64,000 nucleotides of DNA from Pseudomonadota bacterium (GTDB lineage: Bacteria; Pseudomonadota; Gammaproteobacteria; Steroidobacterales; Steroidobacteraceae). The notes beneath the pieces are model-generated. The model did no database searches and was not told where the DNA came from. It saw nothing but the letters and a program-made list of their open reading frames with translations. The position numbers and the translations under genes are program-made. How positions within the stretch are numbered: the stretch's first letter is position 1; every line of letters begins with the position of its first letter. The stretch is taken from NCBI GenBank assembly GCA_021805865.1, contig JAJZDX010000008.1:87383-151382 (forward strand), in the 5' to 3' direction. Of the stretch, positions 35,090 to 64,000 are shown piece by piece.

Positions 35090-35775
35090 TGCTGGGTGTG
35101 GGAGCGGAGTCCCCCTCATGCCGTCCCGTAACGGATGGGCGTGGCGGCGAGCAGCAGAGTGTTCGCGGCGCGCGGGCAGAGGAGGTCGCATCCGCGGGCG
35201 GGAGGAGCAACGGTGATCGACCCGCCCGGACTGAGAGGAGTCAGGATGCGCGCGCAGAAAAGCTCCTCGCGGCGAATAGTCTCTTTACTGCGCTCGAGGC
35301 GAGTTGCGAGAAATGGGCGAGCCGAGCGCGGGTGCCGATCGAGGATATCCGCCAGGACCTCTACGTCCTGTGTCTCGAGGTGGTGCTCGAGAAGAGCGAG
35401 TATCGGACGTTCGCGGCGGCGAGCGTATACGTGTCAGGCCGCATGTGGGGTGCGGCGGAGCGCTACCGGGAATTTCGCGCACGCCCTGACAAGGTACTCC
35501 CGGAGCGCCCTGCGGCCGATACGGCGCAAGCCGAGCAGTGTCGCGCCATCGATGAATGCCTGGAAGTGGCCGAACGGCGCCGAGAGAAAGATCGGGAGGA
35601 TGCTGCGGCGCTGCGGCTTGCGTATCGGGCGCATGCGGAACTGTCAACGCTCGCGCTCATGCGCCGTGCCACCTGGTCTCAGAGCCGCGCGGCGCGGGAG
35701 ACGGGGCTTTCCAAGGCCACTATTCGCTCGCGCGAGCGTCGCGAGCGCAAGAGGCGGGCGGAGAGCGCATCATGA
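35086..35775 (+). CDS. Sigma-70-like/HTH protein
   Basis: 229 residues. Disordered first 60, then a helical block IEDIRQDLYVLCLEVVLEK like sigma region 2 and a C-terminal WSQSRAARETGLSKATIRSRERR helix-turn-helix like region 4. May be an element-encoded sigma-type regulator; anti-sigma partner not seen. Overlaps neighbours by ATGA. Confidence 0.5.
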   Translation: MMLGVGAESPSCRPVTDGRGGEQQSVRGARAEEVASAGGRSNGDRPARTERSQDARAEKLLAANSLFTALEASCEKWASRARVPIEDIRQDLYVLCLEVVLEKSEYRTFAAASVYVSGRMWGAAERYREFRARPDKVLPERPAADTAQAEQCRAIDECLEVAERRREKDREDAAALRLAYRAHAELSTLALMRRATWSQSRAARETGLSKATIRSRERRERKRRAESAS

Positions 35776-38572: not shown

Positions 38573-38889
38573 ACATGTTGCGTGGACTTCTTAAGCGACG
38601 TGCCGAAACGAAGCGGCTCGAGGCCCTGCTTGGCGTGGTCAACCGCGTCTCGGGCGGTGTATACAAGCGGATCGATGAGAACCGGGAACTGCTCGCTGTC
38701 CTGCAGAGGGACTGTCCAGCGTTCCTGGCGAAGCACTGGTGGGTTGAGGGGTGGTTGGCGAGGCAGGACGACTTTCTGACGGCGCTCGCAGAAGCGAGCT
38801 CGATCCCGCCGCACTGGCATCCGGGGTACCCTCGGCCTTGGCCGGGGTGCGCGGACCTCATCGCGCGGGGGCGGGACGACCGTGCGTAA
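38569..38889 (+). CDS. Hypothetical protein (106 aa)
   Basis: 106 residues from ATG 38569 (ATGA with the previous stop; a second in-frame ATG is at 38575). Trp-rich C-terminus (HWWVEGWLARQDDF). No family recognised. Confidence 0.55.
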   Translation: MNMLRGLLKRRAETKRLEALLGVVNRVSGGVYKRIDENRELLAVLQRDCPAFLAKHWWVEGWLARQDDFLTALAEASSIPPHWHPGYPRPWPGCADLIARGRDDRA

Positions 38890-39250
38890 TATGAGTTTCG
38901 CGCTCACGACCGCGCAGGTCCGGGTCGGCACGAAGACCGTGACCCGCCGGATGGGGTGGATGTTCCTCAAGCCGGGCGACCTCGTGCGCCCGGTGGTGAA
39001 GTCCCAGGGACTGAAGCGCGGGGAGAAGGTGGAGGTGATCCGCGCCCCACTACGTATCGTCAGTGTGCGCCGGGAAGCGCTCGTCGACCTGCTGATCGAC
39101 GAGGCATGCGGCCAGCGGGAGCTCGCGCTCGAGGGCTTCGGGGACGATCCTCTGCTGTGCCGTCCGCAGGACTTCATCGAATTCTTCTGCCGGACCCATG
39201 CCTGCGGTCCCGGGGACCTCGTGACGCGCATCGAGTTCGCGTACACCTGA
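38882..39250 (+). CDS. ASCH-domain-like protein
   Basis: 122 residues; MSFALTTAQVRVGTKTVTRRMG at the N-terminus and WMFLKPGDLVRPVVKSQGLKRGEK fit the ASCH/PUA-like fold (RNA-binding or modification). Start GTG 38882 or ATG 38891. Last gene of the long coupled rightward unit before the csf promoter. Confidence 0.6.
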   Translation: MRNMSFALTTAQVRVGTKTVTRRMGWMFLKPGDLVRPVVKSQGLKRGEKVEVIRAPLRIVSVRREALVDLLIDEACGQRELALEGFGDDPLLCRPQDFIEFFCRTHACGPGDLVTRIEFAYT

Positions 39251-39353: not shown

Positions 39354-39383
39354 TTGACACGAGAGTATGGCTTGCCATACGCT
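39354..39383 (+). promoter_or_regulatory. csf operon promoter with GTATGGC palindrome operator
   Basis: TTGACA (39354-39359), 5 bases, perfect half-sites in GTATGGCTTGCCATAC (39365-39380), TACGCT (39378-39383) as -10. A ribosome site (AGGAGTGGAG) precedes ATG 39414. The operator covers the spacer and -10, so a bound protein would repress the type IV-A cas genes. Confidence 0.8.
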
Positions 39384-39413
39384 CGTCACACCATCAGGAG
39401 TGGAGACGGTTCG

Positions 39414-40109
39414 ATGTCATCAGAGACAGCACTCGAATTCGCCTGGGCGCGCTATGGGCGCCTGATCGATCCGGGCAGCCGGACAGGCTGGCTCGGATTG
39501 GCGGGCCTCGATCCCCGGGATGGGCGGTACTATCCGGGCCGTCGCAGCATGACCGCAGTGTTCATCCCGGAGAGCGACCCACCGGAGGTGTACGGCGCGG
39601 ACTATCCGCAGGCCCGGCTCAAATCGCTCGGCGAGCAGGGCGTTGGCATCCAGCGCATCCGTGACGCGCTCTTTCAGGGCCTACCTTGCCGCTGGCTCGG
39701 GGTCGTCTTCGCCAAGCCCGCGTGCGATCCGAAGCACCTCGTGCTCAACATCCCGGGCTCTGCGCTACCGGGTTACTACGATGTGAGATCCGGCGGCCCG
39801 GTCTTTGCGTCTCCCGCGGTTCTCGAGTCCGTCTCGGCCGCGCTCGGCTTTCCAAAGAGCACGCATATCGGACCGCTTCTCGGCGCGGCCCGACTCGCCC
39901 GGGAGGAGTCTTCGAAGACCGCGGCCTGCGCCTATCGCAGCGCGCTCGAGAAGTTTGCTGCGCGTCAGGCGCTCGATGCGCAAACGGTCGCCGCCATGAT
40001 CGGCGCATACCTCGAGTCGGGCATGCGCCACGGACTCCTCGGCAATTATCTCGATTGGTACCACGCACGGACCGAGGCCGCGCCGCCGGCCCCATGTCCT
40101 GCTTCATGA
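39414..40109 (+). CDS. csf1: Type IV-A Csf1 (Cas8-like large-subunit component)
   Basis: 231 residues. Position first in a csf operon and the segment DPKHLVLNIPGSALPGYYDV (residues about 103-122) resemble Csf1 of type IV-A systems, which joins the Csf2 backbone and crRNA 5' end. Sequence similarity is modest so the call rests partly on context: csf5, csf3, csf2 and csf4 follow in order. Its stop overlaps the csf5 start (ATGA). A Cys pair at around 92 and 102 could be a remnant metal site. Confidence 0.75.
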   Translation: MSSETALEFAWARYGRLIDPGSRTGWLGLAGLDPRDGRYYPGRRSMTAVFIPESDPPEVYGADYPQARLKSLGEQGVGIQRIRDALFQGLPCRWLGVVFAKPACDPKHLVLNIPGSALPGYYDVRSGGPVFASPAVLESVSAALGFPKSTHIGPLLGAARLAREESSKTAACAYRSALEKFAARQALDAQTVAAMIGAYLESGMRHGLLGNYLDWYHARTEAAPPAPCPAS

Positions 40110-40696
40110 GGGCCTCCACCATGTACGAAACCATCCTTCGCATGCCGTACGCGGGCTTGGGACCGCTCGCGGGCCTCGGCGCGTACGAAATCCACGCTCG
40201 CGTCGCGAGCCTGATGAATCGCAAACCGCGGGACTATCTTTATGAGTTTAATGCGCCACAAGGCGTGCTCTACCTGCGCGCGGCCGTGCGGCCGGCCGGT
40301 GAGGAAATACCCTGGCGCGAGCTCACCTCAATCGTCGCAGGCGGCCGCTACAAGGTTTTGGGACGCATCGCGCTCGAGTTCAGCCGCCTCACGCGGCGTG
40401 GGAAAGTCACCTCATATGCCGCGCGACGTACCGACTTCGCCGCAGTGCTCGCGCCGCTGCTCGGCGAGCGCGCGGGCCTTGCACCGGATGCGCTCGAGGT
40501 GTGGGCCGAACCGACGGTCACGATCCGAAAGCCGGGTCGCGGCGCATTTCACTTTGTGCCGATCAACTTCTCCGGAACGGTCAGGGTGGAGGACCTCGCG
40601 ATGGCCCGTACCGCGCATGAGCGCGGCATTGGGCGGGCGCGTGGATTTGGCTTCGGCGTCCTGCATTTCCGCCAGATGGCCGCGGAGAGCCGGTAA
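40106..40696 (+). CDS. csf5: Csf5, Cas6-type crRNA endonuclease
   Basis: 196 residues. RAMP ferredoxin-fold protein with the Cas6e-like glycine-rich C-terminal loop GIGRARGFGFG (174-184) preceded by FSGTVRVEDLAMA; this loop binds and cuts the repeat hairpin. His30 and nearby residues may supply catalysis, not verified. ATG 40106 overlaps csf1. Expected to cut each pre-crRNA repeat at the base of the TCCCGC/GCGGGA stem. Confidence 0.82.
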   Translation: MRASTMYETILRMPYAGLGPLAGLGAYEIHARVASLMNRKPRDYLYEFNAPQGVLYLRAAVRPAGEEIPWRELTSIVAGGRYKVLGRIALEFSRLTRRGKVTSYAARRTDFAAVLAPLLGERAGLAPDALEVWAEPTVTIRKPGRGAFHFVPINFSGTVRVEDLAMARTAHERGIGRARGFGFGVLHFRQMAAESR

Positions 40697-40705
40697 GGAG
40701 TTCGC

Positions 40706-41485
40706 ATGAACCACGAGACTTTCACGGTGAGCGCCGTGCCTGCAACACCGATCATCGTCAGCCCGCGCTCGATGCTGACGCTCGACGCCCTGCTCGCGGC
40801 GCTGATTTATGAGCGCACCCAGGATGCCGACCTCGCCATGCGCTCCGTACCGCTCACCGAGACCCTCAGCATTCTCCACGGGAGCGCCGCCTTCCTGAAA
40901 GGCGAGGTACGTCCGGCGCCGCGCGGCGTGGGCGTGTTCAAGGGCGGGCTTCAGCCACGGGAGGTGAGCGAGCCGCGCTTCGTGTGGCCGTCCCGCCGCC
41001 GGGGTGGGCACCGTCAGTACACGGCGATCAACCCCAAGGCCGGCGCGTATCGCAACACGCTCGATGTCTACGAGACGCTCGAGGCCGAGCGCATCGTGTG
41101 GTTCGGACGGGGAGACATCGCGGCCGTCGGCGAGCTTCTCTCCGAGCTCACGCACGTCGGTCGCAAGGCCCGTCAGGGGTTCGGCCGTCTCATTCCCGGC
41201 AGTCTCGAGGTCGAACCCTATGACACCGATCGTTCGATCGCGTGGCCGATCGAAGATCGACCGGTCCCGATGCGACCGGTGGATGTCGATGCCTGGCAGG
41301 CCATGGGCTTTGGCACGGAAGGACTGCGTATCGAGCCGGCCACGGCGCGCATGCCGTATTTCGACGCTTCGGGTCAGCGCCTGTGCGTGCTGCCGCCCAC
41401 CCGGCGGGCGTACTGGGCGGATGACGCCCAACGCTGGCTGCTTTCCTGCTCATTTCAATCGTCAATCGAATTCACCCAGGAGTAA
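40706..41485 (+). CDS. csf3: Csf3 (Cas5-like)
   Basis: 259 residues. A RAMP-type glycine-rich loop GRKARQGFGRLIPG at 152-165 and its position between csf5 and csf2 identify it as the type IV Cas5 homologue that caps the crRNA 5' handle. Ribosome site AAGGAG 9 bases before ATG 40706. Confidence 0.8.
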   Translation: MNHETFTVSAVPATPIIVSPRSMLTLDALLAALIYERTQDADLAMRSVPLTETLSILHGSAAFLKGEVRPAPRGVGVFKGGLQPREVSEPRFVWPSRRRGGHRQYTAINPKAGAYRNTLDVYETLEAERIVWFGRGDIAAVGELLSELTHVGRKARQGFGRLIPGSLEVEPYDTDRSIAWPIEDRPVPMRPVDVDAWQAMGFGTEGLRIEPATARMPYFDASGQRLCVLPPTRRAYWADDAQRWLLSCSFQSSIEFTQE

Positions 41486-41487
41486 CC

Positions 41488-42654
41488 ATGAAAACCCCTC
41501 GTATCGTTCGTCTCACGGGCGCGATCACGGCGCTCTCGCCGATCAGCTATACCATCTGCGGGATTGATGGACTGCCGCGGCTTGCCGGTCGGCCTTATCT
41601 CACCGCCTCGGCGGTACGCTCGATCTTGCGCCACAATGGGCAGGAGATCATCTGCGATCTCGCTGCGTTCAAGCCAAACCCGGACTCCTACTTCCTTCTC
41701 GCCGGCGGCGGGATCGTCGACAAGGCCGACAAGAAGGGCAAGAAGGACAAGGCCGAGGGAGAGGGTGAGGGTGAGAAGGCGAGCAGTGCGGATTCCATTG
41801 CGCCGATGCTGCGCACGCGCTTTGCGCAGGCACACAATCCACTGGTGCGCCTGTTCGGGTCGATGACCAACGGTGTCGGCGGGAAGCTCTGGTGCGAGCA
41901 CGCGCTCGCGAAGACGCCGGGCGAGTTCTTCGGACCCATGGAGGAGAAGGACCCGGAGACCGGCCGGCGTACGGCGCACGATCCATGGTGCGACACGATC
42001 ACGCACGCTCGCTGCGATGATCTTGCGCGCAACCCCGACCGATTCGACTGGACCGCCGAGGAGGTCGAGTCCTATCTCATCCGCCGCGAAGAGGCGAAGA
42101 AGGGGAGCGATCTGAAGAAGCGCAAGAAGGAGGCGCAGCGGCAACTGCGCGCGGCGCGGGCGAAGAACGACGCGGTGGCAATCAGTGCGGCCCGCGAGGC
42201 GCTCGCGGGGATCGAGTCGGAGGAGGGCGGCATCAAGCACGTTTCGCTGGCGCAGCCGAATATTTCCTACGAGTGCATCCGCAAGGGGACGGTATTCGAG
42301 CACTCGTGGGAATTGCGCGATCCGACCGATGCGGAAATCGAGCTCTTCGTGCTCGCGCTCGATGCCTGGGCGACCTGGCCGTACTACGGCGGGCGCTGGT
42401 TTCACGGGTGCGGGCGGGTCTCGGCCGCCTACGATGTGACGGTCCGGGAGGCCGGTTCGCGCGAGTGGACGAGCGCCGGCCGCATCGCGTTCGATGGGAC
42501 GGGTGGGCTCCTCGAAGTGGAAGGGCGCCCGGCACAGTGGCTCGAGGCCCCGGCGCTTCGCGCCATGGCCGCGTCCGGCAGCCTCAATCTCACGCACGAT
42601 GCGATCCAGGCGGCCGGGAAGGATATCGAGGCGGACGAGGACGAGGCCGCCTGA
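41488..42654 (+). CDS. csf2: Csf2 (Cas7-like backbone subunit)
   Basis: 388 residues. N-terminal RLTGAITALSPISYTICGID and YLTASAVRSILRHNG are typical of Csf2/Cas7, which polymerises along the crRNA spacer. A Lys/Glu-rich insert at 78-98 (KADKKGKKDKAEGEGEGEK) and a second Lys-rich helix near 210 are notable. AGGAG precedes ATG 41488. Confidence 0.85.
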   Translation: MKTPRIVRLTGAITALSPISYTICGIDGLPRLAGRPYLTASAVRSILRHNGQEIICDLAAFKPNPDSYFLLAGGGIVDKADKKGKKDKAEGEGEGEKASSADSIAPMLRTRFAQAHNPLVRLFGSMTNGVGGKLWCEHALAKTPGEFFGPMEEKDPETGRRTAHDPWCDTITHARCDDLARNPDRFDWTAEEVESYLIRREEAKKGSDLKKRKKEAQRQLRAARAKNDAVAISAAREALAGIESEEGGIKHVSLAQPNISYECIRKGTVFEHSWELRDPTDAEIELFVLALDAWATWPYYGGRWFHGCGRVSAAYDVTVREAGSREWTSAGRIAFDGTGGLLEVEGRPAQWLEAPALRAMAASGSLNLTHDAIQAAGKDIEADEDEAA

Positions 42655-42725
42655 GTCCGAGAGTCCCGCGTCGGCGTCATGCCGACGCGGGGTGCCGCCC
42701 ATTCGTCATCATGGAGAAATCATCG

Positions 42726-45215
42726 ATGAAACGCTCATTCCAACATCCGTCCGACATTCTGAGGGTTCACGGGCCTGCGCTCGGTCTCGTGGAGAACGAC
42801 GTGCAGCAAGCGTTTGCGGATCACGTCTACGCCGGTATCGTGCAGGCGAACGATCCGAAGTTCGGCTGCGGGCAGCTCTTTGCGCAGGGGTCGACCGGGA
42901 CCGGCAAGACGATGGCCAATCTCGTTGCCGCGGGACTCTTCTGTGTCGAGTCCGGTGCGCGGGTGATCTACTCGACCTACACCCGGGGGCTGCAGCGCCA
43001 GATGTACGCCACCGTACCCGGGGATCCGGAGACGTTGGACCCCGCCTGCGATGCCGCCCGCGCCATCGCGCTCATCGAGCGCGCGACCCACGTGCGCCTG
43101 ACGGTGGCGCTTCTGATGGGTCGCTCAAATTACCTCGACGCGGAGAAGGCGATTTGTCACTGCCGCAAGGTGCTCGAGCAGCAGGGCGCGTGGCTGTCGG
43201 AGGAGGACAAGTGTGCGCTCACCGCGCTCATCCGGTGGGCGAGCGATCCGCCGAATGCCGGGGTGCCGATCGGGGAGTTTCTCGAGGACCATGGGATCAC
43301 AGCGCTTCCTGCGGGCCTCGATCCGTCGGATATCGGTATCGATTCTGATACCCCCGATGACAGTCCGGCGCGGCGTGTCTATGCCGCACACTGCGCGCGG
43401 TCGCGTAGCGCCGATATTCTGATCGTAAACCACGCGCTGTTGCTCGTGGATCGCATCTACCGGGACGGGGAGTTTCTCCACGACGCAGCCGACCCGCGCC
43501 CCGTTGCGGCGCTCGTCGTCGATGAGGCCGAGAAGCTCGAGGCCGCCGCGCGGGGGTTGCTCTCGGACCAGGTGGCGCTCGTTGCCCTCGCCGCCACCGT
43601 GCGCCAGTGTGCCGAGTACCAGGAGGAGGACCTCGCCGGCAAGTCGCTCGATACGCTGGCGGCGCGCGTGGATTCTGTGATGGAGATGCTCGCCGCGGCC
43701 GGCAAAGCGGCCGAGGGAGAGATGCGCGAGCGGAAGGAGTTTGTGCTCTTCCTGGACGATCTGCCGGCAGAGGGACGGGAAGCGCTGCGGGATGCCGTGC
43801 AGGCGCTGTCGGATGCGTTTGGGAAGACCGTGCGCGAGATGCAGCGGTGGGATGTGGACCCCGCACTCGCGCGACTGCGGGACCGGCTGCTCGCGCAGGC
43901 CGGGAGCGTCAAGCGCATTCATGAGGCCCTGCGCGCGCTCGCCGGGAGGCGAGACGGAGCCCCGGCCGCCGATGACATCATCGCCATTCGCTATTCCCCG
44001 ACGCTGCGCGAACCGTCGATCCGGCTCATGACGCTGAATCCGGCGCGCGCGCTCTCGCGCGCGTGGAGGCTGTGGATCTACGGCGGCAAGGTGGATGAGC
44101 GCGAGCGGTTCACGGAGAACGACAGCGCCTCGCGCGCCCGCGCGCTCGTGCTGACCTCCGCGACACTCTCGGCGCCGAACAAGTCCGATACGCCGGACTG
44201 GACCGATATCGGTAAGATGTTCGGAATCTATGACCGATCGAGCGATGCGCGCGGGGGCAACCCGCTCGCCTCGATGAACGAGAAGCGCTGCGCCTTTGCG
44301 CCGAAGCGCTTCGGCTCCGTACGGATCGTCTTTCCGCATCCCGATTTGCCGCCGGTGTACGTGGATGCGGCGGCAGAGGAGGACGAAGGAGAGGCCGAGT
44401 TCGACCGCGAGCACGATCGGGTGCTGAACCCCGAATGGGCCGAGACGGGCGCAGTGGCCATCAATCGCGCCCAGGCGCGCGATCCCGGGCGCATTCTCGT
44501 GCTCTGCAATTCCTTTGCGGCCACGAAGTTGTACGCCCAGGCGGCGCGGGAAGCCGGAATCGAGGGCGTGATCGAGCGCACGCCGGCCAATGCGCAGGCC
44601 GCGTGTATTGCGGACTGGGCGGCGAGTCCGCGCGGGGTGTTCTTTACCCCATCGGGGTGGGAGGGACTCGATATCTCGCAGCAGTCGGGGCCGGATGGAA
44701 AGCGGCTGCGTAACGGCATCAAACACGTGATCGTGACACAGTTGCCCTTTGCCCCACCGGACGGTGCATTGAGCCAGGCATACGCGCGGCATCTGATGCG
44801 TCGCGGCGTCTCGCTGACCCGCGCGGCGTGGATCGTCTTTGGCAAGGCGCGGGACCATGCCTTGATCAAGTTCCTGCAGGGTTTTGGCCGCGGCATCCGT
44901 CACCCGGAGGACTCATTCACGTTCTGGGTGCTCGATCCCCGGTTCCCGCGCTCGGAGCGGTTGCGCAAGGCGTTGCCGATCTCGCTCGTTCGCGAGATCA
45001 GGGATTTCATGTATGCCATCCCGAGCCGGTTTCGGGACAGTGTCGATGGGAGTTCTGCGTGGGAGCGCGGGAGCGTCCTGATGCCCGACGGTCGGGTGTG
45101 TTCGGTCGATGAGGTGAGTCCGTTTGGGCACTCACGCACGCTCACGCGACGGCGGACGCTCGGGCCGCAGAAGGCACCGACCCCGTCGAACCCGACCCCG
45201 TCGCCGCGCGTATAG
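42726..45215 (+). CDS. csf4: Csf4, DinG-family helicase of type IV-A
   Basis: 829 residues, large for Csf4. Walker A QGSTGTGKT (54-62), a DEAH variant DEAEK near 260, TSATL near 475 and QGFGRGIRHPEDS as motif VI define an XPD/DinG-type 5'-3' helicase. In type IV-A systems CasDinG unwinds target DNA after crRNA-guided binding and is needed for interference. Start ATG 42726 has GGAG 9 bases upstream. Last cas gene; terminator follows. Confidence 0.88.
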   Translation: MKRSFQHPSDILRVHGPALGLVENDVQQAFADHVYAGIVQANDPKFGCGQLFAQGSTGTGKTMANLVAAGLFCVESGARVIYSTYTRGLQRQMYATVPGDPETLDPACDAARAIALIERATHVRLTVALLMGRSNYLDAEKAICHCRKVLEQQGAWLSEEDKCALTALIRWASDPPNAGVPIGEFLEDHGITALPAGLDPSDIGIDSDTPDDSPARRVYAAHCARSRSADILIVNHALLLVDRIYRDGEFLHDAADPRPVAALVVDEAEKLEAAARGLLSDQVALVALAATVRQCAEYQEEDLAGKSLDTLAARVDSVMEMLAAAGKAAEGEMRERKEFVLFLDDLPAEGREALRDAVQALSDAFGKTVREMQRWDVDPALARLRDRLLAQAGSVKRIHEALRALAGRRDGAPAADDIIAIRYSPTLREPSIRLMTLNPARALSRAWRLWIYGGKVDERERFTENDSASRARALVLTSATLSAPNKSDTPDWTDIGKMFGIYDRSSDARGGNPLASMNEKRCAFAPKRFGSVRIVFPHPDLPPVYVDAAAEEDEGEAEFDREHDRVLNPEWAETGAVAINRAQARDPGRILVLCNSFAATKLYAQAAREAGIEGVIERTPANAQAACIADWAASPRGVFFTPSGWEGLDISQQSGPDGKRLRNGIKHVIVTQLPFAPPDGALSQAYARHLMRRGVSLTRAAWIVFGKARDHALIKFLQGFGRGIRHPEDSFTFWVLDPRFPRSERLRKALPISLVREIRDFMYAIPSRFRDSVDGSSAWERGSVLMPDGRVCSVDEVSPFGHSRTLTRRRTLGPQKAPTPSNPTPSPRV

Positions 45216-45476: not shown

Positions 45477-46794
45477 GTCGCAAGACCTATCCCGCCGAGC
45501 GGGAATTGAGGGTTGTTGATTGCGCCGATGCTGCTCGTATTGCTGTTAGTCGCAAGACCTATCCCGCCGAGCGGGAATTGAGGGGGCATCATGGTCCGCA
45601 CATCTCCCGGTCCTCTGGTTGTCGCAAGACCTATCCCGCCGAGCGGGAATTGAGGGTGATTTCCGCTCGCCGGCAGCGCCGCGAACGTCGACGTCGCAAG
45701 ACCTATCCCGCCGAGCGGGAATTGAGGGATTTCTCCCTGCTGGCTGCTGTACTCGTTGTTTAGGTCGCAAGACCTATCCCGCCGAGCGGGAATTGAGGGC
45801 AGTACGAGTATGGGTACATGGCCAGCCTGTCCACCGTCGCAAGACCTATCCCGCCGAGCGGGAATTGAGGGTGATCCACCGCGAGCGCAGCCCAACTCGA
45901 TCCGTTCGTCGCAAGACCTATCCCGCTGCGCGGGAGTTGAGGGTGGCACACCTCCCCGGTCGGCTCCTCGAGGTGGCCATCGCAAGCACTATCCCGCTGA
46001 GCGGGAGTTGAGGGTGGGTGGTAGTAGCCATGACGCTCTCCTATGAGGTATCGCACTATCCCGCTGCGCGGGAGTTGAGGATTGATCGCTACGGCCAGCC
46101 ATCGAGCCCTTGAGGGTTATCGCAAGACCTATCCCGCGTCGCGGGAATTTTGGGTAGACCACGAGGAGCCCGCGGCGACGCCCCATCGCTGGATCGCAAT
46201 GACTATCCCGCTGCGCGGGAGTTGAGGGGGCCGGATACCTTGAGAGCGAGACGCTCGGCACGCAACATCGCCAGACCTATCCCGCGACGCGGGAATTGAA
46301 GGCCGTTCGGCACGCAACCGCTCCGTGAGCGCCTTGCGCTCGGCCGCGTGCGACCGGGATTGGCACAATCCCATCGCAGGACCTATCCCGTCCGGCGGGA
46401 GTTATGGGGGATCACCTGGTGCGGTATCCGCAGATCTTGTAGCAAGACCTATCCCGCCGCGCGGGAATTGCGGGCGGCGGGATCGTGAGGGCGCGTACGT
46501 CGTCGGCTCTATCCAGTGGAAGCTGGAATTGTGGACTGATAGTGTGTTTGGCATATCCCGGGACCGGGAATTGGGGGTCGGCTACGGCGGCACGTTCGCC
46601 GCCTGTGAGGCGGAGCGCAAGTGCTATCCCGCCGAGCGGGAGTTGAGGGGAGCCAGACGTGATACGGCTCGCACCGAGGGCCGAGATCGCCAGACCTATC
46701 CCGCGACGCGGGAATTGAGGGAGTGGAAAATCGAGTACGTGAGCGCGACCGCCATCAGATCGCAATCGCTATCCCGCGACGCGGGAGTTGTGGG
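45477..46794 (+). CRISPR. Type IV-A CRISPR array, 19 repeats, distal part degenerate
   Basis: 36-base repeat beginning GTCGCAAGACCTATCCCGCC and ending GAGCGGGAATTGAGGG. Repeats 1-6 (45477, 45549, 45621, 45693, 45764, 45836) are identical; repeats 7-19 (45908, 45979, 46050, 46119, 46193, 46267, 46373, 46439, about 46501, about 46542, 46614, 46686, 46759) diverge step by step. Spacers are mostly 35-38 bases; one gap of 70 bases (46303-46372) probably lost a repeat. Stem TCCCGC/GCGGGA with a 3-base loop; the last 8 bases ATTGAGGG would be the crRNA 5' handle. A possible 20th trace lies at 46808-46843. No cas1/cas2 nearby. Confidence 0.95.
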
Positions 46795-47432: not shown

Positions 47433-49574
47433 GTGAAAGTAATCATTGCGGAGAAACCGAGTGTCGCGAGGGCGATCGCGGGCGTGATCGGTGGCGGGCG
47501 ACGCTGCGAGGGCTATATCGACTGCTCGAGCGCGAACGTTCAGGTGACCTGGTGCCTCGGACACCTGCTCGAGCAGGCAAGGCCGGGCGATTACCTCGCC
47601 GATGGGAAGGTGCGCCCCGAACAATTGCCGGTGATCCCCCGGGACTGGAAGCTGACGCCCCGTGATGCGGCTGCGGGCAAACAGGTGCGCTCGATCAAGG
47701 CGCTGATCGCGAATGCGACCGAAGTGGTGAACGCGGGGGATGCGGACCGTGAGGGGCAGCTCCTGGTCGATGAGGTGCTGATCCACCTGGGATGGCGCGG
47801 CAAGACGAGCCGGTTGTGGCTGTCGAGCCTCGATGACGAGTCGGTCAAGAAGGCGCTCGTCACGACCAAGCCCAATGCGCAGTACGAGCGGCTCTACGCG
47901 AGCGCGCTCGGCCGTCAGCGCGGCGATTGGCTCATCTCGCTGAACGGCTCCTATGCCATGACGCGGCGCATGGGCGATCTTTGGCCGATCGGGCGCGTCC
48001 AGACGCCGACGCTCGCGCTGCTCGTTGACCGCAAGCGCGAGATCGAGGGGTTCGTCAGGCGCGATCACTACACCGTGAAGGCCGTCCTCTCGCATCCGCA
48101 GGGCGGTATTGGCACGTTCTGGATGATTCCGGAGGACCTCACGCGGGATGGACTCCTGCTCGATCGGAAACCCGCCGATGCGCTCGCGGCCAAACTGCCG
48201 CGCCAGATGCTGACGGTGGAGAAGTTCATGAGCAAGAGGGGCGCGCGCGAGGCACCGTTGCCGTTCAGCCTGAGTGGGCTTCAGAAGGCCGCGAGCAAGC
48301 GGTTGGGGCTTTCTGCGGCGAAGGTGCTGGAAGCGGCCCAGGAGCTCTACGAGGCCAAAGTGGCGACCTACCCGCGTACGGACTGCGCGTACCTGCCAGA
48401 GGAACAGCACGGCGATGCCGCGCGGATCCTGAAATCGCTCGGCGCCGGCCGCTTGCCGGCGAATGCCGATCCGTCGCGCAAGCACGCGGCGTGGAATACC
48501 GCGAAGGTCGAGGCACATCACGCCATCCTGCCGACCGGGCAATCGCTACCGTCTTCGCTCTCGGGCGCCGCCCGCCAGGTATTCGATCTCATCGCGGAGT
48601 CCTACATCCGGCTCTTCATGCCACCGGAGCGGTTCGAGCAGCGCGAGGCGGTGCTGCGCACGGCGGATGGCGAAAAATTCAAGGTTACCGCTCGACTCAT
48701 CCAGGAGACGGGCTGGACGGCGCTCGGCAAAGAGGACAAGAACGAGGACGAGGAGGAGGAGTCCTCGAATCTCCCGGTGCTCCGGGAGGGCGAGCGATTG
48801 CCGTGTGAATCGGCGACCGTGGTGGCGCGGCAAACCAAGCCGCCGCGCCCCTATACCGACGGTACTCTCATTGCCGCGATGACCGGCATCCACAAGATGG
48901 TGCAGGACCCGAAGTTGAAAGCGCGGCTGCGCGAAACCTCGGGACTCGGGACCGAGGCCACCCGGGCCGGGATCGTCGAGACCTTGGTGGACCGGGGGTA
49001 TGCCGAGCGGCGCAAGAAGGAGATTCACGCCACCGCGCGGGGCTGCGAGCTCGTGGACTTGTTGCGGCGGATCGTTCCGGAGTTCTGTGATCCGGGCACC
49101 ACGGCGCTTCAGGAGGATCGTCTCGCCGATATCGCCGCGGGAAGGGCGCAGGTGGAGGAGTTCTTCCGCTTCGCCGAGGGCGAGGCGAAGCGGGTCTGCA
49201 CGGCGATCCTGGCCGAGGTGCCGTCGCATCCCTGCGGCGAGTGCGGCAAGGGCCGTCTCTGGCGGCAGGTGAGTAAGGCGGGACGGCCGTACTGGCGCTG
49301 TACGCAGTGCGAGACGGCGTTCGGGGATGTGGGTGGAAAGCCTGGGGCGAAGTTCGGCGACGCCCCTGCGGGGGGCGGGCCCGGTGGTGGCATCGCGAGC
49401 GAGGGCGCGCCGGCCGCAGGGCCGAAGTGTCCGGCTTGCAAGAAACCGACATACAAGGCGCGCACCAAGACCGAGAAGGATTACTTCCGCTGTGGCGGAT
49501 GCCGCTCGGCCTGGTGGCCGCATCGCGAGGACGGGGGCAAGCTCGGCACCAAGTGGCCGCCGATGGGCGGCTAA
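47433..49574 (+). CDS. topB: DNA topoisomerase III
   Basis: Type IA topoisomerase, 713 residues. TOPRIM VIIAEKPSVARAIAG at the N-terminus, DREGQLL acidic pair, active-site region ATYPRTDCAYLP (Tyr near residue 313), GTEATRAGI, and two C-terminal four-Cys zinc ribbons (CGECGKG...CTQC; CPACKK...CGGC). Start GTG 47433, with GGAG upstream, gives the standard N-terminus; ATG 47400 would add 11 residues. TopB homologues are usual on conjugative elements, where they help replication and decatenation. Confidence 0.93.
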   Translation: MKVIIAEKPSVARAIAGVIGGGRRCEGYIDCSSANVQVTWCLGHLLEQARPGDYLADGKVRPEQLPVIPRDWKLTPRDAAAGKQVRSIKALIANATEVVNAGDADREGQLLVDEVLIHLGWRGKTSRLWLSSLDDESVKKALVTTKPNAQYERLYASALGRQRGDWLISLNGSYAMTRRMGDLWPIGRVQTPTLALLVDRKREIEGFVRRDHYTVKAVLSHPQGGIGTFWMIPEDLTRDGLLLDRKPADALAAKLPRQMLTVEKFMSKRGAREAPLPFSLSGLQKAASKRLGLSAAKVLEAAQELYEAKVATYPRTDCAYLPEEQHGDAARILKSLGAGRLPANADPSRKHAAWNTAKVEAHHAILPTGQSLPSSLSGAARQVFDLIAESYIRLFMPPERFEQREAVLRTADGEKFKVTARLIQETGWTALGKEDKNEDEEEESSNLPVLREGERLPCESATVVARQTKPPRPYTDGTLIAAMTGIHKMVQDPKLKARLRETSGLGTEATRAGIVETLVDRGYAERRKKEIHATARGCELVDLLRRIVPEFCDPGTTALQEDRLADIAAGRAQVEEFFRFAEGEAKRVCTAILAEVPSHPCGECGKGRLWRQVSKAGRPYWRCTQCETAFGDVGGKPGAKFGDAPAGGGPGGGIASEGAPAAGPKCPACKKPTYKARTKTEKDYFRCGGCRSAWWPHREDGGKLGTKWPPMGG

Positions 49575-61572: not shown

Positions 61573-61730
61573 GGGTGCGTGAGCACCCTGACCAAGGTGG
61601 GGTAGCCCCGGGGTGCGAGAAGTGGCGCAGCCACGCCGAGCGCCGGGGGCGGTGGGTCACAGGAGGGGGCCGCGTAAGCGGCAAAGTGCGCGTAAGCGCA
61701 CCCCCGAAATGTGACACAACCCCTTACCTT
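61573..61730 (+). other. oriT: oriT-like region between traK and traJ
   Basis: Within the 440-base divergent gap (61322-61761): hairpin GGGTGC-GTGA-GCACCC (61573-61588), arms GTCACA (61656-61661) and TGTGAC (61710-61715) enclosing two hairpins with GTAA loops, CCGC-GTAA-GCGG (61670-61681) and GTGCGC-GTAA-GCGCAC (61686-61701), then TACCTTGT (61725-61732), one mismatch from the YATCYTG nick-site pattern of MOBP relaxases. The nick position is a guess. Confidence 0.5.
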
Positions 61731-61761
61731 GTACGGATTTTGAGTGAGGACTTTTGCTGCA

Positions 61762-62202
61762 ATGGCTTTGGCGGGTGAACGAACCGGGGATGCACAGATC
61801 GCGCAACAGACCGCTGCGCTCGATGTGATCGTGCACGTACGGATCGCGCGCGAGGATGCGAAGCGATTGCGTGCTCGCGCGCGCCAGCTCGGCTGTTCGC
61901 TCTCGGAGCTCCTGCGCGCCGCGGCGCTCGGCGCCGGGCGCGTGATGCCAGGGGACGTGCGCCAGAACGCCACGGCCGTCGCCGCGGCGGCACCGGAAGA
62001 GCCGGAGCCGGTCCACCAGAAGGTGCCGCTGCCAAAGAGCGCGGAGGCGGCCGAGGTGGCACGTGCCGGCCGGATGCTGAAGTCGATGTATCCCGGCCGC
62101 GATAAGCGGTGGACGCCCGCCGAGCGCGTGCGCTGGTGGCGCACGGTGGATGAACTCATGGACACCGCGCGCGCGTGCCTGCGCGCGGTGCAGTCACGAT
62201 GA
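61762..62202 (+). CDS. traJ: TraJ/MobC-like relaxosome accessory protein
   Basis: 146 residues. RHH-like block VIVHVRIAREDAKRLRARAR then LGCSLSELLRAAALG, followed by a helical C-terminal part with RWTPAERVRWWRTVDEL. Directly after the oriT-like region and before the relaxase gene, as TraJ in RP4; expected to bind oriT and guide the relaxase. ATG 61762; GTG 61744 is possible. Confidence 0.65.
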   Translation: MALAGERTGDAQIAQQTAALDVIVHVRIAREDAKRLRARARQLGCSLSELLRAAALGAGRVMPGDVRQNATAVAAAAPEEPEPVHQKVPLPKSAEAAEVARAGRMLKSMYPGRDKRWTPAERVRWWRTVDELMDTARACLRAVQSR

Positions 62203-62244
62203 GCGGATCTGCGAACCGAGAGTCACATCTATGAAGAGGTCGCT

Positions 62245-62670
62245 ATGACAACGATGACGATCCAATTTGCGAATGGCCGCACACAGACCCTGTCTGCGAG
62301 GGCGATTCTGTGGCGTGTAGCACTGGTAGCCCTCGTCCCGTCGATTCTGATGATGGTTCCCATTCGTCGCATCGAGGGAGCGCACGCCGCCGCCGTCTTG
62401 CGACCCACGATGGAGCGCATTGCGGACCACGGCGGCGCTGCTGCGGATATGTGGCTGATCGCGCACTTCGGCGAGGAGTGGCGACTACCGGCCGCCGCGG
62501 CGGCCGGTGATCCAGAGGCGCTGTACCTGCAGGGTCGCATGCTCACGTACCGTGGCCACCCGCGCGCCGGGCGGCGCCTCATTCAGCGTTCTGCGGCAGA
62601 CGGATATTCCTGCGCGGTCATGGAGCAGGATCTGCATCGCAAGAACTCGGTCTTCTCGTCGTGCGGGTGA
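62245..62670 (+). CDS. Small membrane-associated protein (141 aa)
   Basis: 141 residues, one N-terminal membrane helix (VALVALVPSILMMV), then Ala-rich helices with Sel1-like look (AAGDPEALYLQGRMLTYRG). Between traJ and traI. Ribosome site AGAGG. Unknown; could be a transfer accessory or entry exclusion factor. Confidence 0.5.
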   Translation: MTTMTIQFANGRTQTLSARAILWRVALVALVPSILMMVPIRRIEGAHAAAVLRPTMERIADHGGAAADMWLIAHFGEEWRLPAAAAAGDPEALYLQGRMLTYRGHPRAGRRLIQRSAADGYSCAVMEQDLHRKNSVFSSCG

Positions 62671-62691
62671 CAGCACGCGGACCGGGGACGG

Positions 62692-62720
62692 TAACTATCC
62701 CGCCACGCGGGAGTTGAGGG
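62692..62720 (+). repeat. Orphan CRISPR-repeat core on traI ribosome site
   Basis: The 26 bases 62695-62720 (CTATCCCGCCACGCGGGAGT plus TGAGGG) match repeat 7 at 24 of 26 positions and repeat 19 at 24 of 26, including the CCCGC/GCGGG hairpin and 3' handle. The first 10 bases of the full repeat are missing. Its final GAGGG is the Shine-Dalgarno sequence 4 bases before the relaxase ATG. Confidence 0.85.
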
Positions 62721-62724
62721 AGAG

Positions 62725-64000
62725 ATGCTGGCAAAGGTGATCACGTTGACGCGCACGGCCGGAAGCAAGGGCTTCCGGCCGGTCATGAAGTATGTGATGC
62801 GCGTCGGCGAGGATGCCGAGAAGCTCGCGGATGGCGAGCGCCTCGATGCCGGGCATGTGAACTTTGGCACCGAGGACGATGATGCGGGTGACAGCACGTG
62901 GTTCGACCCGCGCACGGATGATCTCTCGGACCCGGGCGTGCGCGCGGCGTATGCGGAGGACCTCGCGCACCTCTGCGAGCGCGCCGAGGTGCGCTGCCGC
63001 GCGCGCGGCCGCTTTCGCGGCAATGCGGTCTACCATGTGGCCATCACATGGAAGGAGGGCGAGCATCCGACGCGCGCGCAGGCCGAGCGCGCGTGCCAGC
63101 ATGTGATGCAATCACTGGGATACTCAGAGCACCAAGCGGCGTGGTCCGTGCACAGGGATACCGATAACGATCACATCCACTTGGTCATCAATAAGGTGCA
63201 TCCGGTGACGGCGACGGTACGCCAGCCGCCGTTTCGGCGCGACTACTTCATCCTGGACAAGTGCATGCGCGAGCTCGAACTGGAATTCGGGCACGGGCGC
63301 GCGAACGGGCCGTACGTCACGCTGGATACCGAGCAGGGACCACAGATCGTGCGTATGAGCAGGGCCGAGCGCCGCGCGCTCGGCCTGCTCAAGGATGCGG
63401 AACCGCACATCGGCGCGCGCGCCGCGCGCGCCGAGCACAATGCCGGTGGCGGCGAATCGTTCCAGTCATGGGTCGCCGGCGCGCCAGCCGAGGCGCTGCG
63501 CGCCGCGGTGGAGCGCGATGGCGCGACATGGGAGGACGCGCACCGCGCACTCGCTGCGTTCGGGTGCGCAATTGAGCGCAAGGGATCCGGGCTCATCGTG
63601 ACCACCACGGTGCCGGGTGCCAATGGCACGCCGCGGGTGCTCGGCGCAAAGGCGTCGCAGCTCGGACGGTGGGCCAGCAAGGCGGCGCTCGAGCGCCGGC
63701 TCGGAGAGTTCGCGCCGCCGGCAGTCGATCTGCCGTCGGCGCAGCACTCTTATATGGAATCCGTGCGCGGGGCGCGCGTAGATCTCGCGAGCGAGGCCCC
63801 GCCTCGAGGCGAGGAGTCCGAGCGCCAGGGCGACCGCGAGGCCGGCGCTGAGAGCGGGCGTCAAGAGCACCGGCATCAGCAGCAGGATCACAGCCAGGCT
63901 GGACGGCAGCGCGGTGCGCGCGATCAGGAGGATCGTGACCGGCGGCGCGCGGAGCGACAAGCCGAACGCGATGCGCTCACGGCCCACTTCGCAGACGGCG
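62725..64000 (+). CDS. traI: TraI-like MOBP relaxase, 5' part
   Basis: Frame open to the window edge (about 425 residues seen). Catalytic Tyr23 in VMKYVMRVG, and the HUH metal motif in SVHRDTDNDHIHLVINKVHP with His150 and His152, both placed as in RP4 TraI; LERDYGL-like segment follows. Nicks oriT and carries the strand into the recipient. C-terminal part continues with an Arg/Glu/Gln-rich stretch. The orphan CRISPR repeat overlaps its ribosome site. Confidence 0.9.
   Translation, partial: MLAKVITLTRTAGSKGFRPVMKYVMRVGEDAEKLADGERLDAGHVNFGTEDDDAGDSTWFDPRTDDLSDPGVRAAYAEDLAHLCERAEVRCRARGRFRGNAVYHVAITWKEGEHPTRAQAERACQHVMQSLGYSEHQAAWSVHRDTDNDHIHLVINKVHPVTATVRQPPFRRDYFILDKCMRELELEFGHGRANGPYVTLDTEQGPQIVRMSRAERRALGLLKDAEPHIGARAARAEHNAGGGESFQSWVAGAPAEALRAAVERDGATWEDAHRALAAFGCAIERKGSGLIVTTTVPGANGTPRVLGAKASQLGRWASKAALERRLGEFAPPAVDLPSAQHSYMESVRGARVDLASEAPPRGEESERQGDREAGAESGRQEHRHQQQDHSQAGRQRGARDQEDRDRRRAERQAERDALTAHFADG

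Follow-up and report, generated by a model that had tools for sequence, protein, structure and literature searches.

Why does a single CRISPR repeat core stand directly before the start codon of a relaxase gene, away from its array? This question is raised by a stretch of 64,000 nucleotides (the window; G000:C70:87383-151382, with G000 denoting the window's own genome) at the right end of a 151-kb contig from a member of the Steroidobacteraceae. The contig likely belongs to a conjugative element bearing its own CRISPR system. The window carries genes for cas6, csf3, csf2 and dinG, a CRISPR array, a topoisomerase gene and a TraT gene, and ends on the right in a relaxase operon in which a NikA-like gene is followed by a gene for a protein of 141 amino acids (aa) and by traI. 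A lone repeat core lies between the last two. We found this copy to be real, unusual and lineage-specific. The reading that we favour, at a probability of roughly one in three, is that Cas6 binds and cuts the core before the ribosome site and raises translation of the relaxase. The original prediction for this locus had been the reverse, repression of traI and hence of conjugation.

A lone repeat core directly before traI

The core (CTATCCCGC-CAC-GCGGGAGTTGAGGG; 62695..62720, forward strand) is 26 bases long and was recognised by its sequence, by alignment with the array repeats and by a covariance model. Divided into its parts it reads CTATCCCGC-CAC-GCGGGA-GTTGAGGG. The six-pair hairpin TCCCGC-CAC-GCGGGA (62698..62712, forward strand), with the same stem as the array repeats, is a predicted Cas6 binding site with a predicted cut after 62712. 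It is followed by the 8-base handle GTTGAGGG, which together with the next bases AGAG (62713..62724, forward strand) contains the predicted Shine-Dalgarno sequence GAGGGAG, and by the ATG of traI at 62725. The core thus has the form of a Cas6 substrate, a stem-loop and then an 8-base handle as in the cognate repeat. These positions support the original prediction, in which the predicted ribosome site of traI is formed by a repeat core, complete with hairpin and handle, that ends four bases before the ATG. Its distance of about 16 kb from the array was also borne out (15.9 kb from the array end at 46794 to the model match at 62685).

The type IV-A array (45477..46794, forward strand) consists of two diverged units (46499-46535 and 46554-46577) and of 17 regular repeats, each 36 bases long (GTCGCAAGACCTATCCCGCCGAGCGGGAATTGAGGG). 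The six nearest to the leader are identical to one another, and the remaining eleven vary. Compared over 26 bases with the 12 distinct array repeats, the lone core showed 3, 2, 3, 3, 5, 2, 3, 5, 3, 2, 2 and 2 mismatches, an identity of 21-24/26 (23/26 with the repeat of the six leader-end copies). The match at 24 of 26 positions that had been claimed is true of five of the 12 and not of the rest. The intact hairpin and handle were described correctly: all six stem pairs, the handle and all 17 invariant columns of the 36-column array alignment are kept. The core departs from the leader-end repeat at three positions, two in the loop and one at the start of the handle, where the array repeats vary among themselves as well.

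A covariance model built from the 12 distinct array repeats (R1) scored the traI copy at 37.2 bits (E 3.3e-5 for the whole genome with stricter filters; E 4.5e-7 for the window alone with filters off). This copy was the top match outside the array in our comparison set for the genus, which comprised 58 genomes, the own genome included and several of them incomplete. The hairpin pattern TATCCCGN{4,5}CGGGANTTG gave 29 matches in this set, 20 in the own genome, a figure that covers the array and traI, and nine elsewhere, against a single match for its reversed control. A chance match was ruled out by this control and by the E-value of the model. The core is intergenic, between the stop at 62670 and the ATG at 62725. 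The nearest R1 matches of at least 10 bits were the other strand of the same hairpin, a stretch at 62636-62667 (10.7 bits, E 1.1) that falls inside a conserved gene, and then the array, 15.9 kb away.

All 13 aligned traI homologues begin with M-[L/I]-AKVI (12 with MLAKVI and one with MIAKVI, at database-predicted starts), and the ATG at 62725 is therefore very likely the true start of traI. With an energy of -8.5 kcal/mol the Shine-Dalgarno duplex is good, yet not exceptional within the window; 2000 random 20-mers of the window have the same value as their 5% quantile. Homologues of traI have weaker duplexes (-0.4 kcal/mol in genome G013, -4.1 on contig C50 of the own genome and -3.6 in G017). 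The start codon is ATG here and in G017, and GTG in G013 and on C50.

Cas6 and the fold of the traI leader

The genes csf2, csf3, dinG and cas6 are all present together with the array, as expected of type IV-A, and no family match to csf1/cas8 was found at the locus. The gene in the csf1/cas8 position (39354..40109, forward strand) had no PADLOC or Pfam match and has a homologue of 78% identity in G013. It is followed on the same strand by the genes for Cas6 (40121..40696), Csf3/Cas5 (40706..41485), Csf2/Cas7 (41488..42654) and the DinG/Csf4 helicase (reading frame 42273..45215). The first part of the dinG frame overlaps csf2, and its true start therefore lies further in than 42273. The processing enzyme had originally been called Csf5. 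The gene at 40121-40696 instead matches the Cas6, Cas6e and typeIV_Cas6 models and no model named Csf5, and encodes a Cas6e-like protein of 191 aa. Excerpts of PMC8175902 set type IV Cas6 apart from Csf5 by its active-site residues (His/Tyr vs Arg). The gene is intact, its relatives are 63-85% identical (67% in G013), and nine sequences share without variation a glycine-rich stretch GRARGFGFG together with His166 and His182. A comparison with solved structures gave no match, and a profile gave one weak match to Cse3 (E 0.68). Among 396 genomes sampled from the order, Cas6 was found in the own one only; G013 was either absent from this sample or missed.

The leader of traI (62687..62730, forward strand) can adopt an alternative fold in which the GGGA of the Shine-Dalgarno sequence is paired with UCCC from the stem, and UGCUG over the start codon with CGGUA. 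For the 44-base leader the minimum-energy fold is this covering fold and not the CRISPR hairpin, and the CRISPR hairpin can be held only at an ensemble cost of 2.3 kcal/mol. Bases 62718-62721 are unpaired at 3-10% in the 44-base leader vs 56-93% in the post-cut piece 62713-62760. On these modelled folds it is plausible that the leader is a two-state switch that Cas6 would tip toward the open state.

In the mechanism that we propose, the UCCC 5' arm of the hairpin would cover the Shine-Dalgarno sequence and the start codon in the alternative fold. The element's Cas6, predicted to recognise the lone hairpin, would hold the CRISPR-hairpin fold on binding. Its cut would be expected after 62712, the 3' base of the stem, as for a Cas6 that leaves an 8-base handle, so that the covering strand would be removed and the ribosome site would stay on the traI mRNA. 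This mRNA would likely be freed from the competing fold and yield more relaxase, not none. Destruction of the ribosome site by the cut, as originally proposed, was rejected on the sequence itself: the predicted cut lies upstream of GAGGGAG, and the downstream RNA would therefore keep GUUGAGGGAGAG-AUG. We infer from this and from the alternative fold that Cas6 would raise rather than lower traI translation. When bacterial leaders were processed by Csy4 (Qi et al. in 2012), a cut upstream of the ribosome site reportedly kept translation.

Much less probably, the cut traI mRNA, which would be a CRISPR RNA handle joined to traI sequence, could itself enter the Csf complex and steer it toward the traI of incoming relatives. 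The traI sequence after the handle matches that of G017 at 28/35 bases and those of G013 and C50 at 22/35.

Several observations count against a role of Cas6 in raising traI translation. The core is not a whole 36-base repeat: the first ten bases agree at 2/10, no more than chance. Over six stretches that contain the hairpin, the probability of the CRISPR hairpin ranged from 0.03 to 0.89. With 2000 random flanks the covering pair was matched in 3.1%, the pairing of both Shine-Dalgarno sequence and AUG in 2.7% and that of the Shine-Dalgarno sequence alone in 10.5%; when only the left flank was random, the latter two values were 6.8% and 14.9%. At these frequencies the fold is weak evidence of selection. 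An AlphaFold model of Cas6 was unusable (pLDDT 36.8), and Cas6 on a hairpin that ends 12 bases before the AUG could block the ribosome instead. The hairpin was moreover found at none of nine other relaxase loci, where nothing exceeded 11.2 bits with the array model. One of the two outcomes named at the outset as speaking against repression, a lack of conservation at traI starts, was thus seen for these relatives, and a conserved traI leader or cis-regulator was rejected. These nine loci omit a distant tenth (L019, with a match of 68 residues, E 1e-4). G013 lacks the leader hairpin though its csf2 and traI are 78% and 76% identical; this genome is 75% complete, and the two genes lie on different contigs. 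Any function should therefore be recent and lineage-specific.

The upstream sequence of traI was also without the hairpin by eye in six cases, namely G013, C50 of the own genome, G017, C48, C16 and G010 (with a start that overlaps the gene upstream). The identity of the traI homologues is 76% for G013, 58% for C50 and 52% for G017. The gap between the 141-aa gene and traI is 54 bases here vs 21 on C50, a surplus of 33, and the core with AGAG accounts for 30; the alignment of the two loci does not place the extra bases cleanly. No array repeats were found convincingly in G013, whose csf contig ends inside dinG.

Repeat-like hairpins in the genus and rival explanations

Outside the array, R1 found 18 matches at E<=0.5 in the 58 genomes, that of traI included, and ten genomes other than the own one carried such matches (G041 and G069 marginally). 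csf2 was found in three of the 58 genomes, none of which was among these ten. We aligned the 15 strongest of the 18 lone matches, leaving out C62:90424 of the own genome and those of G069 and G041. All 15 have a reading frame 3-156 bases downstream on the same strand, the strand to which this comparison applies, and some of the longest frames are not the gene that one would assign. At Shine-Dalgarno distance from a credible start we found only traI (four bases) and contig C16 of G054 (nine bases), where in TATCCCGCGAAGCGGGAATTGAGGGAGAGGGAGAGTG hairpin, GAGGGAGAG and start codon follow one another as they do at traI. An ATG on C39 three bases past the hairpin lies inside the conserved linker described below and was taken as no gene start. 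Compensatory stem evolution among the lone copies was rejected: the 15 copies, 13 of them distinct, contain no pair that changed on both sides.

Two kinds of copies were distinguished. The first comprises single repeats in which the 5' flank is partly retained (GCAAGACC), at C50:48620-48655 (33.4 bits; also numbered L056 8621-8656) and G021:C125:8094-8129 (23.9 bits; L115 8094-8129), both on the minus strand and 156 bases before a topoisomerase gene. The second kind is a two-hairpin module, TATCCCG..CGGGAATT, followed by a linker of about 22 bases with CTGATGGT.TGT and a second hairpin, on G050, G054, G060, G022, G017 and contigs C39 and C52 of the own genome. The module recurs under labels L053, L054, L064, L066, L080, L081 and L029, mostly before two gene types, one with an MTPDLD or MTPQLD start (C39, G050 and G060) and one ATPase-like (C52, G017 and G054). 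Among the ATPase-like genes, Pfam AAA was shown only for the G058 relative, the others being assigned by eye, and neither gene type was recognised downstream of the G022 module. Single-hairpin forms were found in G054:C48, G056 and G058.

The traI copy differs at 2-5 positions from the array repeats and at 4-7 from the module-type copies. Its log2 odds for the array over the module family were +8.5 (leave-one-out values -2.7 to 8.0 for array repeats and -8.6 to 2.9 for modules), which rules it out as a member of the two-hairpin module family. The lone core was likely copied from the element's own array. A diverged copy of the leader module lies inside the array (46510..46581, forward strand), with both bases of one stem pair altered (TCCAG..CTGGA), and suggests that the array and module families met by recombination.

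A weak repeat-like hairpin was also seen on C50 of the own genome (L055, 1368-1393, minus strand; 20.8 bits, E 0.29 genome-wide). The gene that starts 33 bases further on encodes an LPD7 domain, which is listed for full-length TraI homologues as well. That the lone repeats before traI, the C50 topoisomerase gene and the LPD7 gene form one set of mRNA switches under Cas6, through which conjugation would follow the state of the type IV-A system, seems improbable to us.

Beyond the genus, the hairpin pattern was found in eight stretches across contigs of 84,980 species. Four of them (L064, L066, L067 and L069) are identical in sequence to genus copies, and the other four had no shared surroundings. 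Three stretches in viral contigs had contexts unrelated by eye. In two related viral contigs (L071 190-210 and L072 3419-3439) TATCCCGCGCCGCGGGAATTGATGG stands just before a possible start codon, probably by chance. In six enterobacterial type IV-A3 plasmids the arrays were found, with single matches elsewhere at 2-3 mismatches.

A leader element independent of Cas, captured for its stable stem and purine-rich ribosome site and with no part for Cas6, is a possible if doubtful explanation of the traI copy. In the ten genomes that lack a csf2 match, several of them incomplete, almost identical hairpins occur in the leaders of other genes; the order of elements on C16 of G054 is the same, and each of the 15 strongest lone copies precedes a same-strand frame. 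The traI copy is nevertheless nearer to the array repeats than to that leader family, the spacing typical of a ribosome site is confined to traI and G054 C16, and the stems are without compensatory changes. The same hairpin could also be a neutral remnant: a piece of an array or of a single repeat that recombination or an error in replication left behind and that does traI no harm. Single-repeat states as on C50 and in G021, and the absence of the hairpin from the traI of relatives, would fit such a history, which we consider rather improbable given the intact handle, the full set of stem pairs and their placement exactly at ribosome-site spacing. The alternatives named at the outset, a remnant of a mini-array and an origin of the repeat at this site, may also apply; at another locus, on C50 and in G021, one repeat does take the place of an entire array.

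Repression of traI by Cas6 bound to or cutting the leader, as first proposed, draws on the position of the hairpin. Its end, 12 bases before the AUG, is within the usual ribosome footprint, and a bound protein could block initiation there. We consider repression unlikely, as the expected cut retains the Shine-Dalgarno sequence on the traI piece and the hairpin is not conserved at the traI loci searched. Alternatively, the solitary repeat might act as an RNA anti-CRISPR, a decoy RNA by which Cas6 or the Csf complex is kept occupied; lone repeats with anti-CRISPR activity on phages and plasmids are a published class according to excerpts of PMC10651486. For the traI copy this is very improbable, since it sits in a gene leader on the same contig as the cas genes to be inhibited, and since a sigma-70 scan of 61600-63000 gave no promoter-like site of this type (0.1 expected by chance).

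The surrounding element and known repeat-derived systems

The relaxase operon begins with the gene for the NikA-like mobilization protein (61744..62202, forward strand), which we take to occupy the TraJ position. The 141-aa gene (62245..62670, forward strand) has no assigned function. Among the 58 genomes it was found here and on C50 only, where its homologue also adjoins traI. The traI gene (62725..64000, forward strand) encodes a relaxase with a MobA/VirD2-type nuclease domain and a TraI middle domain and runs off the contig end. No DNA match to the traI region was found in plasmids and none to the array in plasmids or phages. Scans of viral contigs gave no relative of the 141-aa gene or of Cas6, relaxase relatives in PLSDB were distant ones only, and a single sub-threshold Rfam match inside traI was taken as chance.

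At the CRISPR locus, the csf genes and the array are bounded on one side by a gene at 38882-39250 and on the other, past the array, by the topoisomerase gene (47433..49574, forward strand, with its likely start at 47433). On C50 and in G021 the homologues of both genes (87% and 90% protein identity, respectively, for the former) flank a gene that we label VirB1-like by our own assumption and, between it and the topoisomerase gene, one repeat. Either the locus collapsed there to one repeat, or one repeat preceded the array.

The array interval 46302-46351 (forward strand) is 88% identical over 50 bases to the traI homologue on C16 of the own genome and 89% over 37 bases to that of G013; by eye, the matched part of traI falls beyond the segment present in the window. 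Another interval, 46421-46438, matches the MTPDLD gene on C39 of the own genome at 18/18 bases. These sequence matches to a relaxase gene and to the MTPDLD gene suggest targeting between elements, and the former fits the role against plasmids described for type IV-A in the excerpts of PMC8175902 and PMC11519345. The gene content of cas6, csf3, csf2, dinG and array is likewise that of the type IV-A systems in these excerpts, which differ from this locus in that csf1/cas8 had no family match here. Excerpts of the structural study of 2024 (PMC11519345) state that no anti-CRISPR against type IV had been identified by then.

The traI copy resembles the solitary repeat units of PMC10651486 (Nature 2023) in being one intergenic CRISPR-like repeat on a mobile element and off an array. 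In the excerpts of that source, 90 of these solitary repeats were on plasmids and all types except VI were represented. Unlike them, the traI copy stands immediately before a relaxase gene, and its cognate cas genes are on the same contig, 17-23 kb away. CreA, according to excerpts of PMC8501985, combines a guide matched to a toxin promoter with one degenerate repeat or two; its repeat-like units lie outside arrays, are processed by Cas6 and regulate a neighbouring gene. The traI copy resembles it in lying outside arrays and, if our reading holds, in the other two respects. Unlike CreA it is one intact core with no second unit: the best match nearby had 10.7 bits (E 1.1), and the model scan of the window gave no second repeat that would flank a guide. 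In three of the six type IV-A3 plasmids (NZ_CP155701.1, NZ_AP018396.1 and NZ_CP139427.1) we observed two repeat-like matches with three mismatches each, 59 bases apart. The pair on NZ_CP155701.1 (L140, record 35331-35412) closely follows mazF, which ends at 35312, and recalls CreA beside its toxin gene. Endoribonuclease hairpins engineered into mRNA tune expression in PERSIST (excerpts of PMC9095627); the PERSIST and Csy4 hairpins are designed, whereas that of the traI leader is natural. In titles and abstract openings of the open-licence literature we found no report of a CRISPR repeat in the leader of a relaxase or transfer gene, type IV included.

Should Cas6 act on the traI leader, the level of the relaxase would be set directly by CRISPR RNA processing, and a type IV-A system would tune the transfer of its own element. 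This would show that solitary repeats can be recruited into gene leaders. Even without Cas6, the repeat-like hairpins in several leaders of the genus and the module inside the array bear on the origin of CRISPR repeats or on their spread outside arrays.
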